DNA of 45,307 nucleotides from a virus: IMG/VR virus record IMGVR_UViG_3300046794_000441, positions 1-45,307 of that record. The stretch is one strand, 5' to 3'. How positions within the stretch are numbered: position 1 is the stretch's first letter; each line of letters begins with the position of its first letter. A model generated the notes under the pieces. It was not told the DNA's origin, ran no database searches, and saw only the letters and a program-made list of their open reading frames with translations. Positions 2,764 to 38,405 of this stretch are shown here, piece after piece. Made by a program: the position numbers and the translations under genes.

Positions 2764-2984
2764 GCGCCCGGGAGACGCTGATCGAGCAGGTGAAGCTCGT
2801 GGAGGACAACTACGGACCGACCGAGGGCTTCAATCCGGAGACCCTTGTCGACGCCTACGCCCACGAGCTGGCGGAGAAGATCCGGGCGGAGCGGTACATC
2901 CACGACTGCTGTCCGGAGTGCCACGCGGCGGCTGACGCGTGCGCCAATCTGATCGACCCGGAGGTGTCTGACAGTGGCGCATGA
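2760..2984 (+). CDS. Small hypothetical protein with paired Cys
   Basis: A 74-residue protein. GTG 2760 is chosen because it forms a GTGA overlap with the upstream stop and follows GGAGGAGCA; an in-frame upstream ATG at 2733 would lie wholly inside the previous gene. The middle is amphipathic helix. The stretch DCCPECHAAADAC in the last third could bind a metal. The function is unknown. It overlaps the next gene by 11 bases. Confidence 0.6.
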   Translation: MSARETLIEQVKLVEDNYGPTEGFNPETLVDAYAHELAEKIRAERYIHDCCPECHAAADACANLIDPEVSDSGA

Positions 2985-3168
2985 CCTGCCCAAGCTGGGC
3001 AGACAGGCGTCTGCCCGCATTGACGACCAGATGCGCAAGGACCTGAACGTCCTGTGCGTGACGTGGGGCGGGACCGTGTCTGACGTCCTGCGCAAGGCCG
3101 TCAACCAGGAGGCCGAGGCCGTCAGGCAGGCCTGGCAGGCGGCTGGAGTCGATCAGCCGGACGCGTAA
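2974..3168 (+). CDS. Ribbon-helix-helix-like DNA-binding protein
   Basis: A 64-residue protein whose pattern (SARIDDQMRKDLNVLC, then GTVSDVLRKAVNQEA) fits the beta strand, helix and helix of the Arc/CopG ribbon-helix-helix fold. Such dimers repress promoters by inserting the strand into the major groove. It is the last gene of the left-arm operon, just before a strong terminator. Its target is unknown; autoregulation of the operon or control of the convergent late genes is possible. The GTG start at 2974 overlaps the upstream gene. Confidence 0.6.
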   Translation: MAHDLPKLGRQASARIDDQMRKDLNVLCVTWGGTVSDVLRKAVNQEAEAVRQAWQAAGVDQPDA

Positions 3169-3254
3169 CATGGATGCCGTCGACCCTCTCCGGTCGGCAG
3201 GCGCCCCGTACCTCCGGATTCATCACCCGGAACCTCTCCTCGGAGCGCGAAAGA

Positions 3255-3286
3255 AAAAGGCCCCCACCTCACGGTGGGGGCCTTTT
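3255..3286. terminator. Two-way intrinsic terminator between convergent operons
   Basis: A perfect 14-bp stem (AAAAGGCCCCCACC / GGTGGGGGCCTTTT) closes a TCAC loop, with an A-run on the left arm and a T-run on the right. It therefore works as a Rho-independent terminator on both strands. It lies between the plus-strand operon ending at 3168 and the minus-strand late operon ending at 3335. Confidence 0.92.
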
Positions 3287-27584: not shown

Positions 27585-28360
27585 GCGCCGACTATCCCCT
27601 CAAGTCGGCGCCCCACGCAGAGCAAAGGCCCGGCCCTCCGCCGGGCCTTAAGCATTCCCGAGCCGCCTGAGAGCGGCTCCGCATTGGGGGGTTGCACGCA
27701 GAGTGCTGGTTGGAGACCAGCACTCGGGGGCAGCGTCGGCTTTAACACCGGGGGGTCATACCCGGTGGAAAGCCGCAGGTCAGACACGGTCGAGGCCCAA
27801 GACAGGGCCTCCGCTGCCCCCGAGCTGGCGAGGGGGACCATCGCTCCGCACCACAGTGCGGAGCTCGGTCGCAGCATGCATGAGTGTGCTCGGTCACGAG
27901 CACACAGCATGAGGACACAGCGGTGCACCACTCCGTGGTGCACACCATGGGTGAGCGTGCTGACGCACGCTCACAGCTGTGCATGCACGGCCCTGATGGC
28001 CGTGCATGGTGTGCCCACCACAGTGGGCACTGCTGTGCGTACGGGTGGAGGCTTCGCCTCCCCCTGCACCACACCGTCCGCTCTACCGACAGCCCCCTCC
28101 GGGGGCGTACGTCGGAAGGGGGGAGCATGAGGCCTGTTGGCCTCCCCTCGCCGGCCTGAAGGCCGGCTGCTGCGCGCCTGACGGCGCGCTGCTGTGTCCG
28201 CGCGATGGTGATCCGTTCGGCCGGAGGCCGACCGGTCACCTGCGCTCCGGCCCCACGCACGCCAGTGCGTTGCGCTGGAGCACCAAAAGCGCGCAGCTCT
28301 CGTCACCGTGGCCTGAACGAGCCTTGACATGCGCACGTCCCGCCACACCCTGTGTGTGGC
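27585..28360. other. Array of about twenty adjacent hairpins, non-coding
   Basis: This stretch has no convincing gene and is packed with inverted repeats, usually with 3-6-base loops and few bases between them. Clear examples (start-end, stem): 27585-27611 (9 bp), 27625-27649 (10), 27660-27679 (7), 27701-27725 (10), 27737-27775 (7+7), 27792-27811 (7), 27843-27864 (9), 27884-27905 (9), 27923-27943 (9), 27951-27974 (10), 27982-28008 (11), 28011-28030 (8), 28047-28061 (6), 28086-28115 (5+6), 28129-28144 (6), 28150-28167 (7), 28172-28189 (7), 28207-28240 (14 with gaps), 28244-28281, 28342-28360 (7). Stem sequences differ, so this is not a copied repeat. It could be a structured RNA, an origin or a packaging site. 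The 27625 hairpin is followed by TTT on the minus strand and might terminate. Confidence 0.75.
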
Positions 28361-28951
28361 CCCTGTACCTGCTGTGACGTGCATATATCCATGTGCACAC
28401 CATGGGTGCGCCGGCGCTGCGCCCGAATCTTCACAAGTCGACCTGATGGGGAACGAGCACTCCGGAACCGGGATCGTGCTCAGTCATGAGCGCGTGAACG
28501 ATTACATGCCTCTTAGGCAACAACCCTCATTCGTGCAGGTCATGGAGCATCTCGGAAAGATCTTGAAGAATCTTCGGTGAACCTATTGACCGCGAACGCG
28601 ATCAGGGCGCAGTGTTGCACCACTCACCGAGGACGACGCGAAAGCGGAGGAAACGGGAGTAACCCCGGAGGATCGCTCACCTGGTGTTCACCAGACGTTC
28701 GACGCCTTCGAACAGCACGACAGCACGACAGCCCAAGGGCATCCGTCACTCGGTATCCACTGAGTTTCCGGACAGCTCGGCTGGTTGGAGCAGGGCCCCG
28801 TTGGAGGCGGCAGTCGCCGATGACCTCACGGGCAGGGCGCCAGGACATGGCGCAGGGCATCAGGCTCGGGACCACCCGAGACAGGCCCTGTGGGCACAGG
28901 TGGCGCTTAGACAAGACGATGACGGGCCGTATAGCCCGTCACTCGTCGAGT
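28361..28951 (+). other. Leader region without a supported gene
   Basis: About 590 bases between the hairpin array and the first accessory gene. It contains smaller hairpins (GAGCAC/GTGCTC near 28460, TGCCT/AGGCA near 28508, and TGACGGGC/GCCCGTCA at 28920-28941). Two weak open frames exist on the plus strand (44 codons from ATG 28446 and 93 codons from GTG 28684), but neither has a good start signal, and third-position GC is about 70% or below, which seems low for this genome. I see no certain promoter. Confidence 0.5.
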
Positions 28952-29021
28952 CGGCACGGAAGTGATGAGCCCTGCCGGCTCGATGAGTCCGCATCACATG
29001 ACAGTGGAGAGGCTGATCATG
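28952..29021 (+). promoter_or_regulatory. Two-hairpin translation leader, copy 1
   Basis: Hairpin A (28952-28977) has arms CGGCACGG / CCCTGCCG around the loop AAGTGATGAG. Hairpin B (28997-29021) has arms CATGACAG / CTG-A-TCATG around TGGAGAGG, so the Shine-Dalgarno sequence is in the loop and the start codon ATG is in the stem. The same two loops recur in copies 2 and 3 with different stems, which suggests a selected RNA fold controlling translation. Confidence 0.6.
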
Positions 29022-29255
29022 AACACACGCAGCAACGACTACCCCACGGGCAACGCGAACGGCATGTCGTTCATCAGCAACCGGTGGGTGTTCACCGGTG
29101 CGGAGGGATACCGCGTCAAGCAGGACCCTGACGACGCGCACCTGTTCATGGTGGTGCGCTACAGCGCAGCCGCGGAGACGCCGTTCTACGGCGGTCGCGG
29201 CCTGGCGGAGGACGCGGCGCACGAAATGGCCTGGAGCCTCGCCGGTCCACGCTGA
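29019..29255 (+). CDS. Small hypothetical accessory protein
   Basis: A 78-residue protein opening MNTRSNDYPTGNANGMSFISNRWVF with an alpha-beta pattern (YRVKQDPDDAHLFMVVRYSAAAETPFYGGRG). No family is recognised. The ATG at 29019 is chosen because it follows GGAGAGG in the leader hairpin; in-frame ATGs upstream lie inside the leader. It is a single-gene unit, followed by its own terminator at 29274. Confidence 0.65.
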   Translation: MNTRSNDYPTGNANGMSFISNRWVFTGAEGYRVKQDPDDAHLFMVVRYSAAAETPFYGGRGLAEDAAHEMAWSLAGPR

Positions 29256-29273
29256 AGCCCTGTAAGAGCCATC

Positions 29274-29304
29274 GGGCGTACGGACTTGAGCCGTACGCCC
29301 TTTT
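29274..29304 (+). terminator. Intrinsic terminator
   Basis: A perfect 10-bp stem, GGGCGTACGG / CCGTACGCCC, with a 7-base loop is followed by TTTT. It ends the single-gene unit at 29019-29255 and precedes the second leader copy. Confidence 0.9.
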
Positions 29305-29320
29305 GGTTCCGCAGGAATCA

Positions 29321-29373
29321 CCCTCGGAAGTGATGAGCCGGGGGCCACGTGATCAATGGAGAGGTTGATCATG
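29321..29373 (+). promoter_or_regulatory. Two-hairpin translation leader, copy 2
   Basis: Hairpin A (29321-29344) has arms CCCTCGG / CCGGGGG (one G-T pair) around AAGTGATGAG. Hairpin B (29348-29373) has arms CGTGATCAA / TTGATCATG (one G-T pair) around TGGAGAGG, with the start ATG in the right arm. Stem sequences differ from copies 1 and 3 but pairing is kept, while both loops are identical. Confidence 0.6.
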
Positions 29374-29715
29374 AACACGAAGTGCGACACCATGCAGTGC
29401 GCAGCGACCGCCACCCACCGACTGTCCTGGGTGGACGAGTTCGAAGAGACCGTGAACGAGAAGGTGTGCGAGCCCTGCGGACAGGGCTACGTGACCCGCC
29501 CACGCCTCAAGGCGACGCTGGAACCGCTCGCCCCCACGCAGAGCGGCTACACCCCCTGCGCATGCCGTGACTGCATGGACACCACGGTGTCCCGCAACAC
29601 CAACAATCCGGAGCTGTGCGCGCTGTGCGACGACGCCGGATGCGTCGCCTGGGAGCAGGGCTCCCGGGCGGTCCTTGCGTGGGAGTGCCAACGCGACGAC
29701 GCGTACGGGGGCTGA
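29371..29715 (+). CDS. Cysteine-rich zinc-binding-like protein
   Basis: A 114-residue protein with CDTMQC near the start, CEPCGQG in the middle, CACRDCMD and CALCDDAGC toward the end, plus nearby His: several possible zinc sites. It opens MNTKCDTMQ, so its first bases match those of the 29019 gene within the leader repeat. I recognise no family. Translation is probably controlled by leader copy 2. It is followed by three tightly spaced small genes. Confidence 0.65.
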   Translation: MNTKCDTMQCAATATHRLSWVDEFEETVNEKVCEPCGQGYVTRPRLKATLEPLAPTQSGYTPCACRDCMDTTVSRNTNNPELCALCDDAGCVAWEQGSRAVLAWECQRDDAYGG

Positions 29716-29716
29716 C

Positions 29717-29863
29717 ATGGACCAGCGCGAGTACGAGGACATGATCGTTGCCCGTGCTGCCGATCTCTATCGGCAGTGGGAGGCCCGCCCTTGGCACGCA
29801 AAGCTCAGGGGCCGCGTACGGACCGCATGGCGGCGCTTCCGCGTCGCCCGGAAGGGGTGGTGA
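29717..29863 (+). CDS. Small basic hypothetical protein
   Basis: A 48-residue protein starting MDQREYEDMIVARAADLYRQWE and ending in a strongly basic helix (RGRVRTAWRRFRVARKGW). ATG 29717 lies one base after the previous stop with GGGGG seven bases upstream. The composition suggests RNA or DNA binding. Its stop overlaps the next GTG start. Confidence 0.6.
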   Translation: MDQREYEDMIVARAADLYRQWEARPWHAKLRGRVRTAWRRFRVARKGW

Positions 29864-30015
29864 GCGTGGTCGGTCTCACCCTGGGTGAGGAGAGGCGCCT
29901 CAAGAGGCTTGGCGCCCTCCTCCGCAAGGCTCAGCGCGAAGAGCGCATCGTTGATCAAGTGCGCATCGAGCGCGAGATCACGTCCATCCGCCACGCGGCT
30001 GGACTGACCGACTGA
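29860..30015 (+). CDS. Small helical charged protein
   Basis: A 51-residue protein from GTG 29860 (GTGA overlap with the previous stop; GGAAGGGG upstream). Nearly all of it (EERRLKRLGALLRKAQREERIVDQVRIEREITSIRHAAG) is a charged amphipathic helix that may form a coiled coil. No function is recognised. A terminator follows at 30033. Confidence 0.6.
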   Translation: MSVVGLTLGEERRLKRLGALLRKAQREERIVDQVRIEREITSIRHAAGLTD

Positions 30016-30032
30016 TCATCCGCCGCAGCATC

Positions 30033-30057
30033 GTGGGGCCGTCTCGCACGGCCCCAC
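30033..30057 (+). terminator. Terminator-like hairpin
   Basis: A perfect 10-bp stem, GTGGGGCCGT / ACGGCCCCAC, with a 5-base loop is followed by CCTTGCTCTT. It closes the 29371-30015 unit and precedes leader copy 3. The T-tract is weak. Confidence 0.7.
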
Positions 30058-30080
30058 CCTTGCTCTTACGGATGAGAGCA

Positions 30081-30136
30081 CGCACGGGAAGTGATGAGCC
30101 CGTGCGCCCCATGGTTGATGGAGAGGTCACACCATG
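30081..30136 (+). promoter_or_regulatory. Two-hairpin translation leader, copy 3
   Basis: Hairpin A (30081-30106) has perfect arms CGCACGGG / CCCGTGCG around AAGTGATGAG. Hairpin B (30110-30136) has arms CATGGT-TGA / TCA-C-ACCATG around TGGAGAGG, with the start ATG at the end of the stem. This is the best-paired copy of the family. Confidence 0.62.
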
Positions 30137-30496
30137 AAGATCGTCTACACCCGCGACGACCAGAGCACCCGTCAGCAGGCCCGAGACGCCTGGGAGGACG
30201 CGCAGCAGCGCGCCACGGCCGCGTTCACGTGGCCGATGGAGGAGCCGCGGAGCGTGGATCCGTCCGGAGATCCGCAGTACCCGTACAACCGCCCCTGGGA
30301 GCGCCTGGCCATGCGGGACGCGGACATGTACGAGCCACGACGTGTGGCGCTGTACAACTCCAAGCTGAACGCCCTGGACGACTACAACCCCGAGCGTCAT
30401 GAGCGGCTGTACCACCTGCCGAAGGGACAGCGACCGTTCCGCGACGGTGACGGTGCGATCTACAGCCTGGAGTACCTCAAGCGGACGGGGGCGTAA
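30134..30496 (+). CDS. Hypothetical accessory protein
   Basis: A 120-residue protein starting MKIVYTRDDQSTRQQARDAWEDAQQRA, helical at first and then rich in Pro, Tyr and Arg (DPQYPYNRPWERLAMRDADMYEPRRVALYNSKLNALDDYNPERHERLYHLPKG). No family is recognised. It is controlled by leader copy 3 and followed two bases later by the next gene. Confidence 0.65.
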   Translation: MKIVYTRDDQSTRQQARDAWEDAQQRATAAFTWPMEEPRSVDPSGDPQYPYNRPWERLAMRDADMYEPRRVALYNSKLNALDDYNPERHERLYHLPKGQRPFRDGDGAIYSLEYLKRTGA

Positions 30497-32429: not shown

Positions 32430-32481
32430 GCCGGAGGCCTGAAGGGGCCTCCGGCACTGGTTCGAGGAGAGGTGAACCATG
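32430..32481 (+). promoter_or_regulatory. Leader hairpins ahead of the DUF5753 gene
   Basis: A perfect 10-bp hairpin (32430-32455) is followed by TGGTTCG / TGAACCA (32458-32479; G-T at the loop), which closes an 8-base loop AGGAGAGG. This is another hairpin-B-type element with the Shine-Dalgarno sequence in the loop and an ATG (32479) starting in the stem. That ATG opens only an 8-codon mini-frame; the DUF5753 frame starts at ATG 32484. Confidence 0.5.
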
Positions 32482-32483
32482 TC

Positions 32484-33269
32484 ATGGAAACCGCCGAGCA
32501 ACTGATCAGAGCGTTAAGAGCCCCGGACCAGCGGGGCATGGGCCGTGTTGAGGCGAGCGACACCGGTCCGTCCAACATCAACCGCCTGGCCGACCTGGAC
32601 GCGATGGCCACGACCATCCGCATCTGGGGCAGTTCGGTGATTCCCGGGAACCTCCAGACGCCGCAGTACTCGGACGCGGTGATCCGGGCAGCGCACCCGC
32701 GACTGCCCACCATGGAGGTGCGCCGGCGCGTCCTTCAGAAGGAGGTCCGCCAGCGGGCCTTCCTCAAGAGGACGTTCGACGAAGCCCTGAGCCACGTATG
32801 GGTGGTCATCTCGGAGCGCGCCATCACGCAGGCCGTCCATCTGGACGGCAGCGTGCACGTACAGCAGCTCTTCCACCTGTCCCGCCTTGCGGCACACGCG
32901 AAGATCATCCTTCAGGTGCTTCCCGAGGGCTTCACTCCAGGACTGGCGGATTCATTCAGCCTGTACACCCTGGACGAGGAACACCGCGTTGGCTACGTTG
33001 AGACGATCATGGGCTCGTGGTACTCCACGCGCTCGGAGGACGTGGCCAAGCTCCACTCGACCTTCAGTGACATCGGGGGCGTGGCCATGTCCCAGACAGC
33101 CACGCGGCTATTCATCCGAGAGGTGCTGAACACATGGCGATCAGCAAACCCCGTGTTGCCCGACAGTATCGAGGAGAGCCGTTCCTCTTCTCCTCGTACT
33201 CCAGTGGTGGAGACGAGTGCATCGGAGTCGCAGGACTCCCCCCGCGCACCGCACCGGACGGAGCCATAG
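32484..33269 (+). CDS. DUF5753 (Scr1-like) regulator lacking its HTH domain
   Basis: About 261 residues. The stretch IWGSSVIPGNLQTPQYSDAVIRAAHPRLP, then RRRVLQKEVRQRAFLKR, VVISERAITQAVHLD, QLFHLSRLAAHAKIILQVLPEGF and the VGYVETIMGSWY region match the DUF5753 domain of Streptomyces Xre/Scr1-type regulators. The N-terminal Xre helix-turn-helix normally present is missing; only about 40 residues precede the domain. Codon 11 is TTA (32514), which in Streptomyces needs the bldA tRNA. The last 45 residues overlap the DUF397 gene in another frame. It may act as a decoy or partner of host proteins. An in-frame GTG lies at 32472. Confidence 0.82.
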   Translation: METAEQLIRALRAPDQRGMGRVEASDTGPSNINRLADLDAMATTIRIWGSSVIPGNLQTPQYSDAVIRAAHPRLPTMEVRRRVLQKEVRQRAFLKRTFDEALSHVWVVISERAITQAVHLDGSVHVQQLFHLSRLAAHAKIILQVLPEGFTPGLADSFSLYTLDEEHRVGYVETIMGSWYSTRSEDVAKLHSTFSDIGGVAMSQTATRLFIREVLNTWRSANPVLPDSIEESRSSSPRTPVVETSASESQDSPRAPHRTEP

Positions 33270-33566: not shown

Positions 33567-33943
33567 CGAGGTCAGGACACGGGACAAAGCCGCGCGAGTA
33601 GAAATGGCGGCCCTGCCGGAGGCGGCAGGGTGATCAGAGCCGCTGCGCTAGAGCGAAAAGGCACCGACGACCTGACCAGCCCTGGAGGGGGTCAAGCCTC
33701 TCCAGGGCACGGGACCATGAGAGACGCAAGCAGGAACGCCGTGCAGCCCCTTCGGGCAGCTGCGTCACCCCGAAGGGACGGCCAACGCCTGTAGCGGGAA
33801 AAGGTCCTGGTGAGTTTCGCTCCAACCGCATCTCAGGAGGAGCTGTAAGGGTCTGGCCAGCCTGAACCTGATCAATTCGGCCACCGCCCCGCCGGCCTGA
33901 TGACCGGCGGGGCTTCCCATGTCCCGAGGAGAGGAGCCCGGCA
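33567..33943 (+). other. Non-coding, hairpin-rich gap
   Basis: There is no supported gene in about 380 bases. Hairpins: 33611-33630 (8 bp), 33679-33708 (12 bp, one wobble), 33748-33777 (9 bp with GCAGCTGC in the loop) and 33886-33913 (10 bp), the last just before the ParB-like gene. A 25-codon frame from ATG 33718 has no family and poor support. Confidence 0.55.
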
Positions 33944-34846
33944 ATGACCTTGCCGCGCAAGCCCGAGCCGGAAGAGGAGCTCATTCCGGCCAACGATCCG
34001 CACTCGCTCCCGCGGAAGTCGGGGGTTTTCCCCGTCACGCCCGCGATGGCCAGTTCCTGGCTCTCGTACCGCAACCACCCGAAGAACCGTCCCCTCAGCA
34101 AGTCCGTCTCCGCCCGCTACCAGGCGGACATGGAGGCCTGCCGGTGGCGCCAGGGCACCCCCGAGGGCTTGATCTTCGATACGGACGGCTACGTGATCTC
34201 GGGCCAGCACCGCCTGAAGGCGCAGGCGAACGCCGGGACCACGCTCGACTGGTGGATCTTCGTGAACGAGCCCCGCGAGATCTTCGAGCACGTGGACCAG
34301 GGCTTCCGCCGTACCGCGGCGCACCTGATCCGCGGCAAGTACGCCTCCCAGGTCGGCGCCGGAGCGCGTCACCTGGCGGCGCTCGCCTACGGTGACCGCT
34401 GGGGCATGCCGCACTTCAACGGCATCACCACCCCCGAAGTGCTGGCCACCCACCGCGAGTGGCCGGAGCTGACCTGGCACCTGACCGAGGTCATGGCCTG
34501 CCATTACGAAGCCGGGGTCGCAGGCCCCCCGCACCTGGCCGTGATCGCCCAGGCGGACCGCACGGAGCACCGGGACATGATCCCCTCCTGGCTGGAGGGC
34601 GTGCGTACGGGTTACGACCTGAGCAAGGGCGACCCGCGTGCTCACCTGCGGAACCGTTTCCGCAGCGGATTCGCCATGACGGGTCAGGGCAACAAGCGCG
34701 ACTCGATGTATGCGCAGATCGTCAAGGCGTGGAACGCCTACGTGACCGGCGAGTCCCTGACGGTCCTGCGGTTCATGGCCTCCGAGGAACTGCCCACGGT
34801 CGTGGGCTTCACCTTCAAGAACGACACCAGGGAGGACGCGGCGTGA
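33944..34846 (+). CDS. ParB/Srx-fold-like phage protein
   Basis: A 300-residue protein. The N-terminal half has RPLSKSVSARYQADMEACRWRQGTPEGLIFDTDGYVISGQHRLKAQANAG, where ISGQHRL corresponds to the GxxRhxA/GQHR signature of ParB-like nucleotide-binding proteins; then FEHVDQGFRRTAAHLIRG. The C-terminal half is helical and is known to me from actinophage homologues of unknown function. It may bind DNA or nucleotides near replication or partition. GGAGAGG precedes ATG 33944. Its stop overlaps the next GTG. Confidence 0.68.
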   Translation: MTLPRKPEPEEELIPANDPHSLPRKSGVFPVTPAMASSWLSYRNHPKNRPLSKSVSARYQADMEACRWRQGTPEGLIFDTDGYVISGQHRLKAQANAGTTLDWWIFVNEPREIFEHVDQGFRRTAAHLIRGKYASQVGAGARHLAALAYGDRWGMPHFNGITTPEVLATHREWPELTWHLTEVMACHYEAGVAGPPHLAVIAQADRTEHRDMIPSWLEGVRTGYDLSKGDPRAHLRNRFRSGFAMTGQGNKRDSMYAQIVKAWNAYVTGESLTVLRFMASEELPTVVGFTFKNDTREDAA

Positions 34847-35497: not shown

Positions 35498-35800
35498 ATG
35501 CCGCCAAGGAAAAGAGTCGACTTGCCGGAGTATGTGAGAGAAGTCGTCCTCCTGGACGTCGAGCGGTCGTATCGAAAGTCGCTCGAGTCCAACGAGGAAG
35601 CCAAGATCCGGATCTACCTGGCCACCGAGCAGGGCCTGACGACGCGAGAGCTCGCCGATCAGCTCGACATCGGTCAGACCTCCGTCAGCAAGTACGCCCG
35701 AGAAGGGAAGGAGGCCTACGAGCTGCGTGACCAGAAGAAGCGAAGTCGACGCACTGGCGAAGGTCCTGATGGACCCTCAGAACGAACAGAGATCGGCTGA
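35498..35800 (+). CDS. HTH regulator, possible phage repressor
   Basis: A 100-residue protein. RIYLATEQGLTTRELADQLDIGQTSVSKYAREGKEAYELRDQ is a clear helix-turn-helix with the recognition helix at QTSVSKYAREG. The ends are charged. AAGGGGAAG precedes ATG 35498. It has its own upstream gap of 125 bases, so it could be separately promoted. It lies 0.9 kb upstream of the integrase, a common place for a lysogeny regulator, but no repressor family is recognised. It overlaps the next gene by 74 bases. Confidence 0.65.
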   Translation: MPPRKRVDLPEYVREVVLLDVERSYRKSLESNEEAKIRIYLATEQGLTTRELADQLDIGQTSVSKYAREGKEAYELRDQKKRSRRTGEGPDGPSERTEIG

Positions 35801-36613: not shown

Positions 36614-36648
36614 AGACCCCGGGTGGCGGTGCATGCCTCCCGGGGTCT
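36614..36648 (+). terminator. Terminator-like hairpin ahead of the integrase
   Basis: A perfect 10-bp stem, AGACCCCGGG / CCCGGGGTCT, with a 15-base loop is followed by TCGTC. It separates the upstream genes from the integrase. The gap 36598-36671 is a candidate place for attP, but no core can be identified from this sequence alone. Confidence 0.65.
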
Positions 36649-36671
36649 TCGTCAGTCGCGAAGGGACCGAC

Positions 36672-38405
36672 ATGGGCAAGACTCTCACGGCCACGCTCCG
36701 GGCCGTCGACTACCTGAGGGTGTCGACCGAGGAGCAGGCCAAGGGCTACGGCATCGCCTACACGGGCAAGAAGACCAAGGCCTTCATCGAAAGGAAGGGC
36801 TGGACCTACGTCCAGACCTACGGGGACGAGGGCTTCAGCGGGAGCCTGGAAGCGCACGAGCGCCCCGACCTCAAGCGCCTCATGGAAGCGGCCCGGCAGA
36901 CGCCGCGACCGTTCGACATGGTGGTGGTCAACGAAGGCAGGGCCATCGGCCGTACCGGACGGGCGTTCTGGAAGTGGGTCTGGGAACTGGAAGACCTCGG
37001 GGTCTTCGTCGCCGTGGTCAAGAAGGACTACGACAACTCGACCTCCCAGGGCCGCAGTCAGATGCGCAAGGATGCGGACTACGCCGAGGAGGAGCGGGAA
37101 GCGATCCGCGACCGCACCCAGGGCGGCATCCAGGAGAAGGCCGAAGAGGGCGGGTGGCCCGGAGGGCGCACCCCGTACGGCTGGCGCGTCGAGAACAAGG
37201 GCCAGAAGGGCATCTCCAAGGCCGTACGCGACGACGCCGAACACGCCGTACTTCTGCGGGCATTCGAGTTGATCGCGATCAAGGGCAAGAACGCCCAGGA
37301 GGCGGCCCTGACGCTCAACTTGGAGCAGACGCTCACCCGCGAGGGCAAGCCCTGGTCGAACAAGAACCTCCTGAACAAGCTCAAGTCGTCTGCGGTCATG
37401 GAGGGCCACGTCGTCTTCCGCCAGGAGAAGCGGGCCAAGAAGGACCGCGAGGGCAACCTCATGTGGGGCAAGTCGCTGACCATCCCCCTGGAGCCGGCGT
37501 TCACGGACGCCGAGCTGCGACAGCTCAAGGCCGCCCTGGCGGCCGGCTCGGTCGTCCGCAACGCCTCCGGAGCCCCGGAGTACCAGCTCTCGAAGCGGAT
37601 CACGGGGCAGTGCGGACGGCACTACACAGGCTTCCACCGCGGCTCGCTGCGGGGGTACCGCTGCTCGGGCAAGCAGGAGACGTACGCGGGAGCGGGCATC
37701 TGCTCGTGCTCGCAGGTCTCCGCGGACCTGCTCGAAGAGGCGGCATGGTCGAAGATCTGCCACCTCCTGGGCGACGCAGACCAGCTGCGCGAGCTGTCCC
37801 GGGCCTGGGTGGCCCGCGGCATGGCCGGACAGGTCGACTACGCGCGCCGGCTCAAGGAGCTGGACGCGCAGATCTCGGAGCAGACCGACACCATCGACAC
37901 GATGATGGTCCTCAAGGCCCGCCAGGCGGCCCAGCAGGGCCTGCGCGGAGAAGCGGCCGTAGAGGCCGCTGAGAAGGCCGTGAAGCCCCTTCAGCTGGCT
38001 CTCACGGAGTTGCAGAAGCAGCGCAACGAAGCGGCGGCCTGGGAGGCCGAGGCCCGTCAGGCGGACGAGCGCGCGAGGGACCTGGAGTCACTGGCCAAGG
38101 CGGCGAGCAGCCGCCTGGAGTCGCTCTCCGTCGAGAAGCGCTCGCGGCTCATCACGCTCCTGGATGTCCAGGTGACGCTGACCTCGCCCGTACCGCGGAC
38201 CTGTCCCGGCCGGAAGGCCGGACTCCCGGACTTCGAGGTCCGGGGCGTGGTGGACCCCCGCTTGGTTACGGAGCACATCGAGGCACGATTCCGAGGAGAA
38301 ACATGGCCTCATGTGCCATCTGGGGTTATCCAATTCCGTGTGCGGGTGGCGGCCTCGCTGACCTCGGAAGATGTCCGCGGCCTTGTGGACCGTAGGGCGG
38401 CTTAG
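36672..38405 (+). CDS. int: Large serine integrase
   Basis: A 577-residue large serine recombinase. The N-terminal catalytic domain has YLRVSTEEQ with catalytic Ser18, then GFSGSLEAHERPDLKRLMEAA and NEGRAIGRTGRAFW. The recombinase domain includes GGWPGGRTPYGWRVENKGQ. A zinc ribbon uses Cys314 with His317 and Cys331, then Cys344/346 (GQCGRHYTG, GYRCSGK, GICSC). A long coiled coil follows near residues 380-480. It recombines attP with a host attB. The ATG 36672 has GAAGGG upstream; an in-frame ATG 39 bases earlier is less likely. A GAAA-loop terminator follows. Confidence 0.93.
   Translation: MGKTLTATLRAVDYLRVSTEEQAKGYGIAYTGKKTKAFIERKGWTYVQTYGDEGFSGSLEAHERPDLKRLMEAARQTPRPFDMVVVNEGRAIGRTGRAFWKWVWELEDLGVFVAVVKKDYDNSTSQGRSQMRKDADYAEEEREAIRDRTQGGIQEKAEEGGWPGGRTPYGWRVENKGQKGISKAVRDDAEHAVLLRAFELIAIKGKNAQEAALTLNLEQTLTREGKPWSNKNLLNKLKSSAVMEGHVVFRQEKRAKKDREGNLMWGKSLTIPLEPAFTDAELRQLKAALAAGSVVRNASGAPEYQLSKRITGQCGRHYTGFHRGSLRGYRCSGKQETYAGAGICSCSQVSADLLEEAAWSKICHLLGDADQLRELSRAWVARGMAGQVDYARRLKELDAQISEQTDTIDTMMVLKARQAAQQGLRGEAAVEAAEKAVKPLQLALTELQKQRNEAAAWEAEARQADERARDLESLAKAASSRLESLSVEKRSRLITLLDVQVTLTSPVPRTCPGRKAGLPDFEVRGVVDPRLVTEHIEARFRGETWPHVPSGVIQFRVRVAASLTSEDVRGLVDRRAA

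Follow-up and report, generated by a model that had tools for sequence, protein, structure and literature searches.

The 45.3-kb record of a soil Streptomyces-type phage analyzed here, referred to at its full length as the window, encodes a terminase ∼50% identical to those of Streptomyces phages of the genus Manuelvirus and 76 to 99% identical to those of about 30 metagenomic or prophage contigs. Three of its plus-strand genes are preceded by structured leaders belonging to a family shared by some 20 related phage genomes or contigs of the Streptomyces type. A typical leader stacks four hairpins, namely the terminator-like H0, H1, hairpin A, and hairpin B. The loop of hairpin B carries the Shine-Dalgarno (SD) sequence, and the start codon falls within the stem or next to it. 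The four hairpins adjoin one another in leaders 2 and 3. The hairpins below come from RNA folding, and those of leader 1 A and leader 2 H1 also from relatives.

28941 to 28988, plus strand: leader 1 hairpin A, extended stem ACTCGTCGAGTCGGCACGG/CCCTGCCGGCTCGATGAGT, loop AAGTGATGAG
28997 to 29021, plus strand: leader 1 hairpin B, SD GGAGAG in the loop, start ATG (29019) in the stem
29019 to 29255, plus strand: gene behind leader 1, 78 amino acids (aa), no family match
29274 to 29300, plus strand: leader 2 H0, terminator-like hairpin followed by TTTT
29304 to 29320, plus strand: leader 2 H1, stem TGGTTCC/GGAATCA, loop GCA
29321 to 29344, plus strand: leader 2 hairpin A, stem CCCTCGG/CCGGGGG, loop AAGTGATGAG
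29348 to 29373, plus strand: leader 2 hairpin B, stem CGTGATCAAT/GTTGATCATG, loop GGAGAG, start ATG at 29371
29371 to 29715, plus strand: gene behind leader 2, 114 aa, no family match, homologues behind typed leaders in other phages
30033 to 30057, plus strand: leader 3 H0, terminator-like hairpin
30061 to 30080, plus strand: leader 3 H1, stem TGCTCTTA/TGAGAGCA, loop CGGA, with TGCTCTTA resembling a boxA core
30081 to 30106, plus strand: leader 3 hairpin A, stem CGCACGGG/CCCGTGCG, loop AAGTGATGAG
30110 to 30136, plus strand: leader 3 hairpin B, stem CATGGTTGAT/GTCACACCATG, loop GGAGAG, start ATG at 30134
30134 to 30496, plus strand: gene behind leader 3, 120 aa, no family match
33886 to 33913, plus strand: fourth A hairpin, stem GCCCCGCCGG/CCGGCGGGGC, loop CCTGATGA, upstream of the gene at 33944

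Hairpins A and B were predicted in all three leaders, with minimum free energies of −54.1, −50.1, and −54.9 kcal/mol and z-scores of −5.2, −4.2, and −4.6 for leaders 1, 2, and 3, respectively, bearing out the two-hairpin plan before three unrelated genes given in the preliminary description. That plan had missed H0 and H1 before hairpin A in leaders 2 and 3 as well as the fourth A hairpin, which has no clear hairpin B. The A loop AAGTGATGAG occurs at 28960 to 28969, 29328 to 29337, and 30089 to 30098, with no other match in the window at zero or one mismatch, and the SD octamer TGGAGAGG begins at 29005, 29357, and 30119. The B loop, first described as eight bases, does contain the SD sequence but is predicted to be the six-nucleotide GGAGAG, with U·G closing pairs in two of the leaders. 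The A stem of leader 1 has a C·C mismatch and reaches further out than first described. In the relative L128 one of its G-C pairs has become A-T (TCG/CGA to TCA/TGA), and leader 1 of G001 (36770 to 36870, L140) keeps the outer stem ACTCGTCA/TGATGAGT (ACTCGTCAtGCGGGCAGGG/CCCTGCCCGCtTGATGAGT) around a different apical part of ∼85 nucleotides (nt).

At its gathering score Rfam matched a single element in the window, a tRNA, and gave only chance-level matches in the leader region; no promoter was predicted near the leaders. A leader peptide starting in the A loop was ruled out, its frames not being conserved, and so was a likeness to the C/D box (RUGAUGA), for which snoRNA matches were subthreshold only (E > 2).

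Elsewhere in the window, positions 36633 to 38405 encode what we take to be a serine recombinase/integrase, so that the phage is probably temperate; among relatives this protein is strongly divergent (33 to 67% identity to the window protein). Upstream of the integrase gene lies a 100-aa protein resembling helix-turn-helix regulators (35498 to 35800), found in most complete clade A genomes and without a match in G012 to G015. The early region also encodes a DUF5753 protein (32472 to 33269), DUF5753 being a domain known from Streptomyces regulators. Between the terminase and the first leader there is an array of perfect palindromes (27843 to 28030) with loops of 4 to 5 nt and a spacing of ∼30 bp, for example GTGAGCGTGC/GCACGCTCAC around TGAC, and similar arrays are present in G001, G002, G004, and others. 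The array is possibly a regulator-binding region; it was ruled out as a source of antisense RNA, showing no conservation as a typed loop.

The window's A loop was also found in leaders of L047 (record G001), L128, and L132. An exact 14-mer, GGAAGTGATGAGCC, proved a poor finder of relatives, with mostly chance matches in viral contigs, where L047 was the only true relative, and 10 matches in unrelated phyla in genome contigs, judged to be chance. A blastn search of one leader against isolated phages likewise gave chance-level matches only. The constancy of the loops that had been claimed from the three copies holds inside one genome but not among relatives, whose leaders have other A loops, as follows.

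Type I, loop (A)GUGAUGA(G) or CCUGAUGA(A): the window, G001, G002, L152, L187, L256
Type II, loop UGGCAC: G003, G006, G011, L160
Type III, loop GUGCCA: G004, L166, L184, L260
Type IV, loop CUGAUCA/C or AUUGAUCC: G007, G010
Type V, loop CUGAUUA: G008, G009
Type VI, loop CGGCAU: G005, G015

The table of genomes by loops is nearly block-diagonal, against a chance expectation of 0.02 to 0.06 matches per genome.

The A stems vary beneath these loops while remaining paired. When A sites were picked solely by loop and position (76 in all), flush stems of at least 5 bp were present in 82%, compared to 29% with the arms swapped; this excludes chance for the leaders of the window and is the less biased of our stem tests. 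In the alignments of the type II and type III A hairpins, 89.6% and 84.4% of stem cells are paired (62.9% and 49.2%, respectively, after shuffling), percentages biased upward since these alignments were gathered partly by stem. Their covariation scores by pair counting are 0.60 and 0.68, and 0 of 500 shuffles scored as high. Covarying homologues thus exist in related phages, and the view that stem changes with pairing kept mark a selected RNA structure is sustained. H1 behaves in a similar way, its stem varying among relatives with pairing kept (GCTCT/AGAGC, GGTTCC/GGAACC, GCCCT/AGGGC, and GCTCC/GGAGC) and reaching at least 6 in 45 of 66 sites compared to 20% in shuffles. In clade A, a B stem flanks the SD sequence at 45% of 139 early-strand GGAGAG starts compared to 11% (maximum, 17%) with the arms swapped, the corresponding values in distant relatives being 41% and 11%, and late-strand starts have such a stem in 8% and 5%, equal to their own controls; the Manuelvirus isolates Manuel and JXY1 are without hairpin B (0% and 9% of 10 to 11 starts). 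We are all but certain that the leader family is real and under selection.

Among 64 leader genes we found 47 homologous pairs behind typed leaders, and in 37 of these the two genomes were of different types, each gene carrying the loop of its own genome at protein identities of up to 86%. Because orthologues carry their own genome's loop, something genome-specific would have to read the A loop. This comparison of orthologous sequences is our strongest argument for a diffusible, genome-specific reader, and a reader of this kind very probably acts in trans. Together with the genome-specific loops, it also lends support to the earlier idea that these genes could be switched together by a factor of the phage.

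A candidate for the reader lies on the early strand just downstream of the replication operon, whose last gene (2974 to 3168) ends with a TAA at 3166 to 3168. Between this gene and a bidirectional terminator, at 3179 to 3239, stand two hairpins, b′ and a′, that we call the anti-leader; b′ begins 11 nt after the TAA.

3179 to 3198, plus strand: hairpin b′, stem GTCGACC/GGTCGGC, loop CTCTCC, complementary to the SD loop GGAGAG
3213 to 3231, plus strand: hairpin a′, stem TCCGG/CCGGA, loop ATTCATCAC, complementary to the A loops GUGAUGA and CCUGAUGA
3232 to 3239, plus strand: second anti-SD stretch, ACCTCTCC
3255 to 3286, plus strand: bidirectional terminator, ending the replication operon just past the anti-leader

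As RNA, the b′ loop reads CUCUCC (anti-SD) and the a′ loop AUUCAUCAC, complementary to the A loops of the window phage. The same b′-a′ plan is seen at the homologous place in G001, G007, G008, G009, and G010, and every type I, IV, or V record having that region, six in total, contains the anti-leader. The a′ loop tracks the A loop, being AUUCAUCAC or CUUCAUCAC in type I, CCUAAUCAC in type V, and CUGAUCA or CUGAUCC in type IV. A complementary-loop scan of 23 records on 2 strands with 6 loop types gave six matches, all on the early strand; five were to the genome's own type, and the sixth was an extra type IV match beside the type V match in G009. G007 was missed because its a′ loop is CTGATCC, and a search with a 6-bp stem cutoff misses the a′ of the window, the stem of which is 5 bp.

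Loop-loop pairing within the own type extends over 6 to 7 nt for types I and V compared to at most 4.8 nt across types; for type IV it covers 4 to 5.5 nt, and since that loop is near-palindromic its complementarity is weak evidence. The duplexes of b′ with the SD loop have energies of −8.8 to −13.4 kcal/mol. A comparable a′ arises in at most 0.06% of shuffled 3′ untranslated regions (UTRs) of equal length. The 81-nt anti-leader by itself is not unusually stable (z-score of −0.56). In G008, every TAATCAG is antisense to a leader, and the anti-leader contains TAATCAC.

No anti-leader was found in the type II, III, and VI genomes in which the region is present (G003, G004, G005, and G006), and the A loops of these types are equally constant. 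Their complement-loop candidates were scattered matches outside the anti-leader plan and were rejected; either the anti-leader of these types is located elsewhere or they use a different reader. Further contigs with an anti-leader carry no leaders, several of them ending before these. A conserved stretch, GTGCGCAGCGCC..GAAACGTGGTCCACC..AAGGGAA, lies near the late terminator in the same 3′ UTR of G004, G005, L268, L276, and L285 and may be the anti-leader counterpart of other types. On the early strand of G006 (38226 to 38258) there is a 12-bp hairpin, CCTGCCTGCCGG/CCGGCAGGCAGG with the loop TGCCACTAC, complementary to GUGGCA of the type II loop, a possible type II anti-loop.

We propose that the early accessory genes of the phage would form a posttranscriptional regulon, each gene with a structured leader in which hairpin B would show the SD sequence in its loop and hold the start codon locked within its stem or next to it, with hairpin A, just upstream, as a genome-specific address label. 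The label would be read by a trans-acting antisense RNA, the anti-leader, derived from the replication operon's 3′ UTR, and the b′-a′ order is the antiparallel one that would be required to kiss A and B simultaneously. As the replication operon is transcribed, the anti-leader would build up and kiss both loops, the ribosome site would be blocked, and the early genes would be turned off, the A loop confining the shutoff to leaders of that phage; given how common SD loops are, b′ would lack specificity by itself. We infer a stable anti-leader RNA, its pairing in vivo, and its repressive effect, the direction of that effect because of the anti-SD loop in b′. Judged from the sequence comparisons, the anti-leader is the best-supported candidate for the reader of the A loop in types I, IV, and V, and we hold the arguments for and against this role to be in balance; that a two-loop antisense RNA shuts off the early genes may, with equal justice, be believed or doubted. 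The general statement, that one two-hairpin RNA of the replication operon would read the kissing and SD loops of a whole set of early genes in a temperate phage family through a code switched repeatedly between relatives, we put forward tentatively, at a little under even probability.

An RNA-binding protein had been suggested as the partner of the leaders, and the best candidate is now a phage-encoded antisense RNA, at least for types I, IV, and V. A phage protein could nevertheless read the A loop as N reads boxB, either as a translational regulator or as an antiterminator carrying RNA polymerase through the H0 hairpins, with H1 as a boxA-like element. A variable stem topped by a loop particular to each phage is what lambdoid boxB shows, the genes are separated by terminator-like H0 hairpins, some H1 hairpins contain TGCTCTTA, which is near boxA, and such a protein would account for types II, III, and VI without an anti-leader. 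However, no protein family of at least 60 aa was seen to track the loop type; the helix-turn-helix protein at 35498 to 35800 diverges regardless of it, as do the 226-aa, WhiB-like, and ParB-like families. H1, moreover, is a covarying hairpin and not a constant boxA; TGCTCTTA is found in leader 3 and many relatives and is absent from leaders 1 and 2, and the count of the pattern in the window is not above chance. The complementary anti-leader would also have to be a coincidence, and we regard a protein reader as possible but doubtful.

There might also be no switch at all. Hairpin B would then be an insulated ribosome site that keeps the SD sequence accessible in a GC-rich mRNA irrespective of the gene that follows, and H0, H1, and A would be mRNA-end or processing structures (RNase III, stability). 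An insulated site agrees with the presence of B as far out as distant relatives that lack typed A loops and with near-identical leaders preceding different genes in relatives, as in the leader 2 region (29258 to 29377, 120 nt), which is 95.8% identical in G001 while the start of the gene behind it differs. It leaves unexplained, however, the constancy of the A loop inside each genome, its change from one genome to the next, and the fact that orthologues follow their own genome, and we consider it unlikely. Recruitment of the ribosome through the SD loop, which had been offered earlier, is still likely for hairpin B, yet it leaves hairpin A unaccounted for.

The leader structure appears to work as sense-strand RNA, since interior single mismatches in leader helices favor G·U (41) over A·C (19). 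With stem ends included, there is no bias in the A stems (17 G·U compared to 21 A·C), and the B stems, counting terminal positions, have 32 and 30; in weighing RNA against DNA we gave the interior mismatches more weight than the stem ends. Hairpins in DNA or single-stranded DNA, serving as recombination or cassette-exchange sites or as repressor operators in either orientation, would fit the lack of G·U preference in whole A stems, the type II (TGGCAC) and type III (GTGCCA) loops being reverse complements of each other, and the leaders marking gene-swap junctions. Against this, a constant loop with variable arms is the opposite of a double-stranded DNA operator, the position is fixed at the SD sequence and start codon on one strand, and the interior G·U excess remains, making a DNA role very improbable. 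Equally remote is the idea that the anti-leader is a gene-less second leader, an RNA sponge read from the late strand while some other factor regulates, for although an SD loop and hairpins in the order A-B appear when the element is read as its reverse complement, the late strand offers no convincing reading frame behind it, the bidirectional terminator should stop late transcription into the element, and the b′ and a′ stems have G·U pairs on the early strand that would be A·C on the other (G000, G001, L267, and G010).

If the two-loop antisense RNA is real, these phages would possess a phage-wide RNA regulon with a changeable code, in which a loop of six to seven bases, common to many mRNAs, lets one antisense RNA address them all. 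The loop code would possibly set which phages cross-regulate or exclude each other, cross-regulation groups would be predictable from sequence alone, and leader/anti-leader modules could serve as orthogonal translation switches in Streptomyces.

Lambda boxB and N combine a phage-specific loop with a tolerant stem, at one or two nut sites per genome and with a known N protein, whereas here the element recurs at numerous ribosome sites and no protein was found to correlate with it. In T4, RegB and RegA silence many early mRNAs at GGAG ribosome sites (PMC3014915), a similar early silencing that is protein based and does not involve constant hairpin loops.

The nearest described elements in the open-license literature are the start-associated sequences (SAS) and their extended form (ESAS) of cluster K and EF phages (PMC3203893, PMC7302621). 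They too consist of two parts and recur in actinobacteriophages at the ribosome sites of nonstructural genes that are unrelated to one another; SAS, GGGATAGGAGCCC, has an SD core inside and self-complementary ends, cluster K has an upstream inverted repeat, and the consensus differs among subclusters. The leaders share the position at nonstructural gene starts, on the early strand only, late-strand starts being without B. SAS, however, is one fixed 13-mer, whereas the SD flanks of the leaders vary with pairing kept; allowing up to 2 mismatches, it has one match in the window compared to 1.8 by chance and none at the three leaders. In ESAS the arms of the 17-bp upstream inverted repeats are conserved and the spacer is variable, and the authors saw little support for RNA pairing (PMC3203893, PMC7302621), whereas the leaders of the window have a conserved loop and variable paired arms. 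With both the 13-mer and the conserved arms lacking, we do not file the leaders as SAS/ESAS. Our proposal would supply a concrete RNA-level model that could be tried on the start-associated leader elements of actinobacteriophages, the function of which has been open since 2011.

In mechanism, the nearest systems are the c4 antisense RNA of P1 and P7 (PMC12197685) and the P4 CI RNA (PMC4825925). The latter is a short phage RNA that pairs with leader targets and silences early genes, acting by transcription termination at seqA and seqC of one operon (PMC4825925), whereas the likely target here is translation. c4 is a phage-encoded, phage-type-specific antisense RNA that binds near a ribosome site through complementary sequences probably located in loops (PMC12197685), all of which the proposed anti-leader would share; a trans-encoded RNA with loops complementary to ribosome-site loops was found here for types I and V, weakly for type IV, and not for types II, III, and VI. 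c4 has a single mRNA target, ant, whereas the anti-leader sits in a 3′ UTR and would address a regulon through a shared loop code. By this analogy, the action of the anti-leader would be closest to that of a c4-type antisense RNA having many targets.
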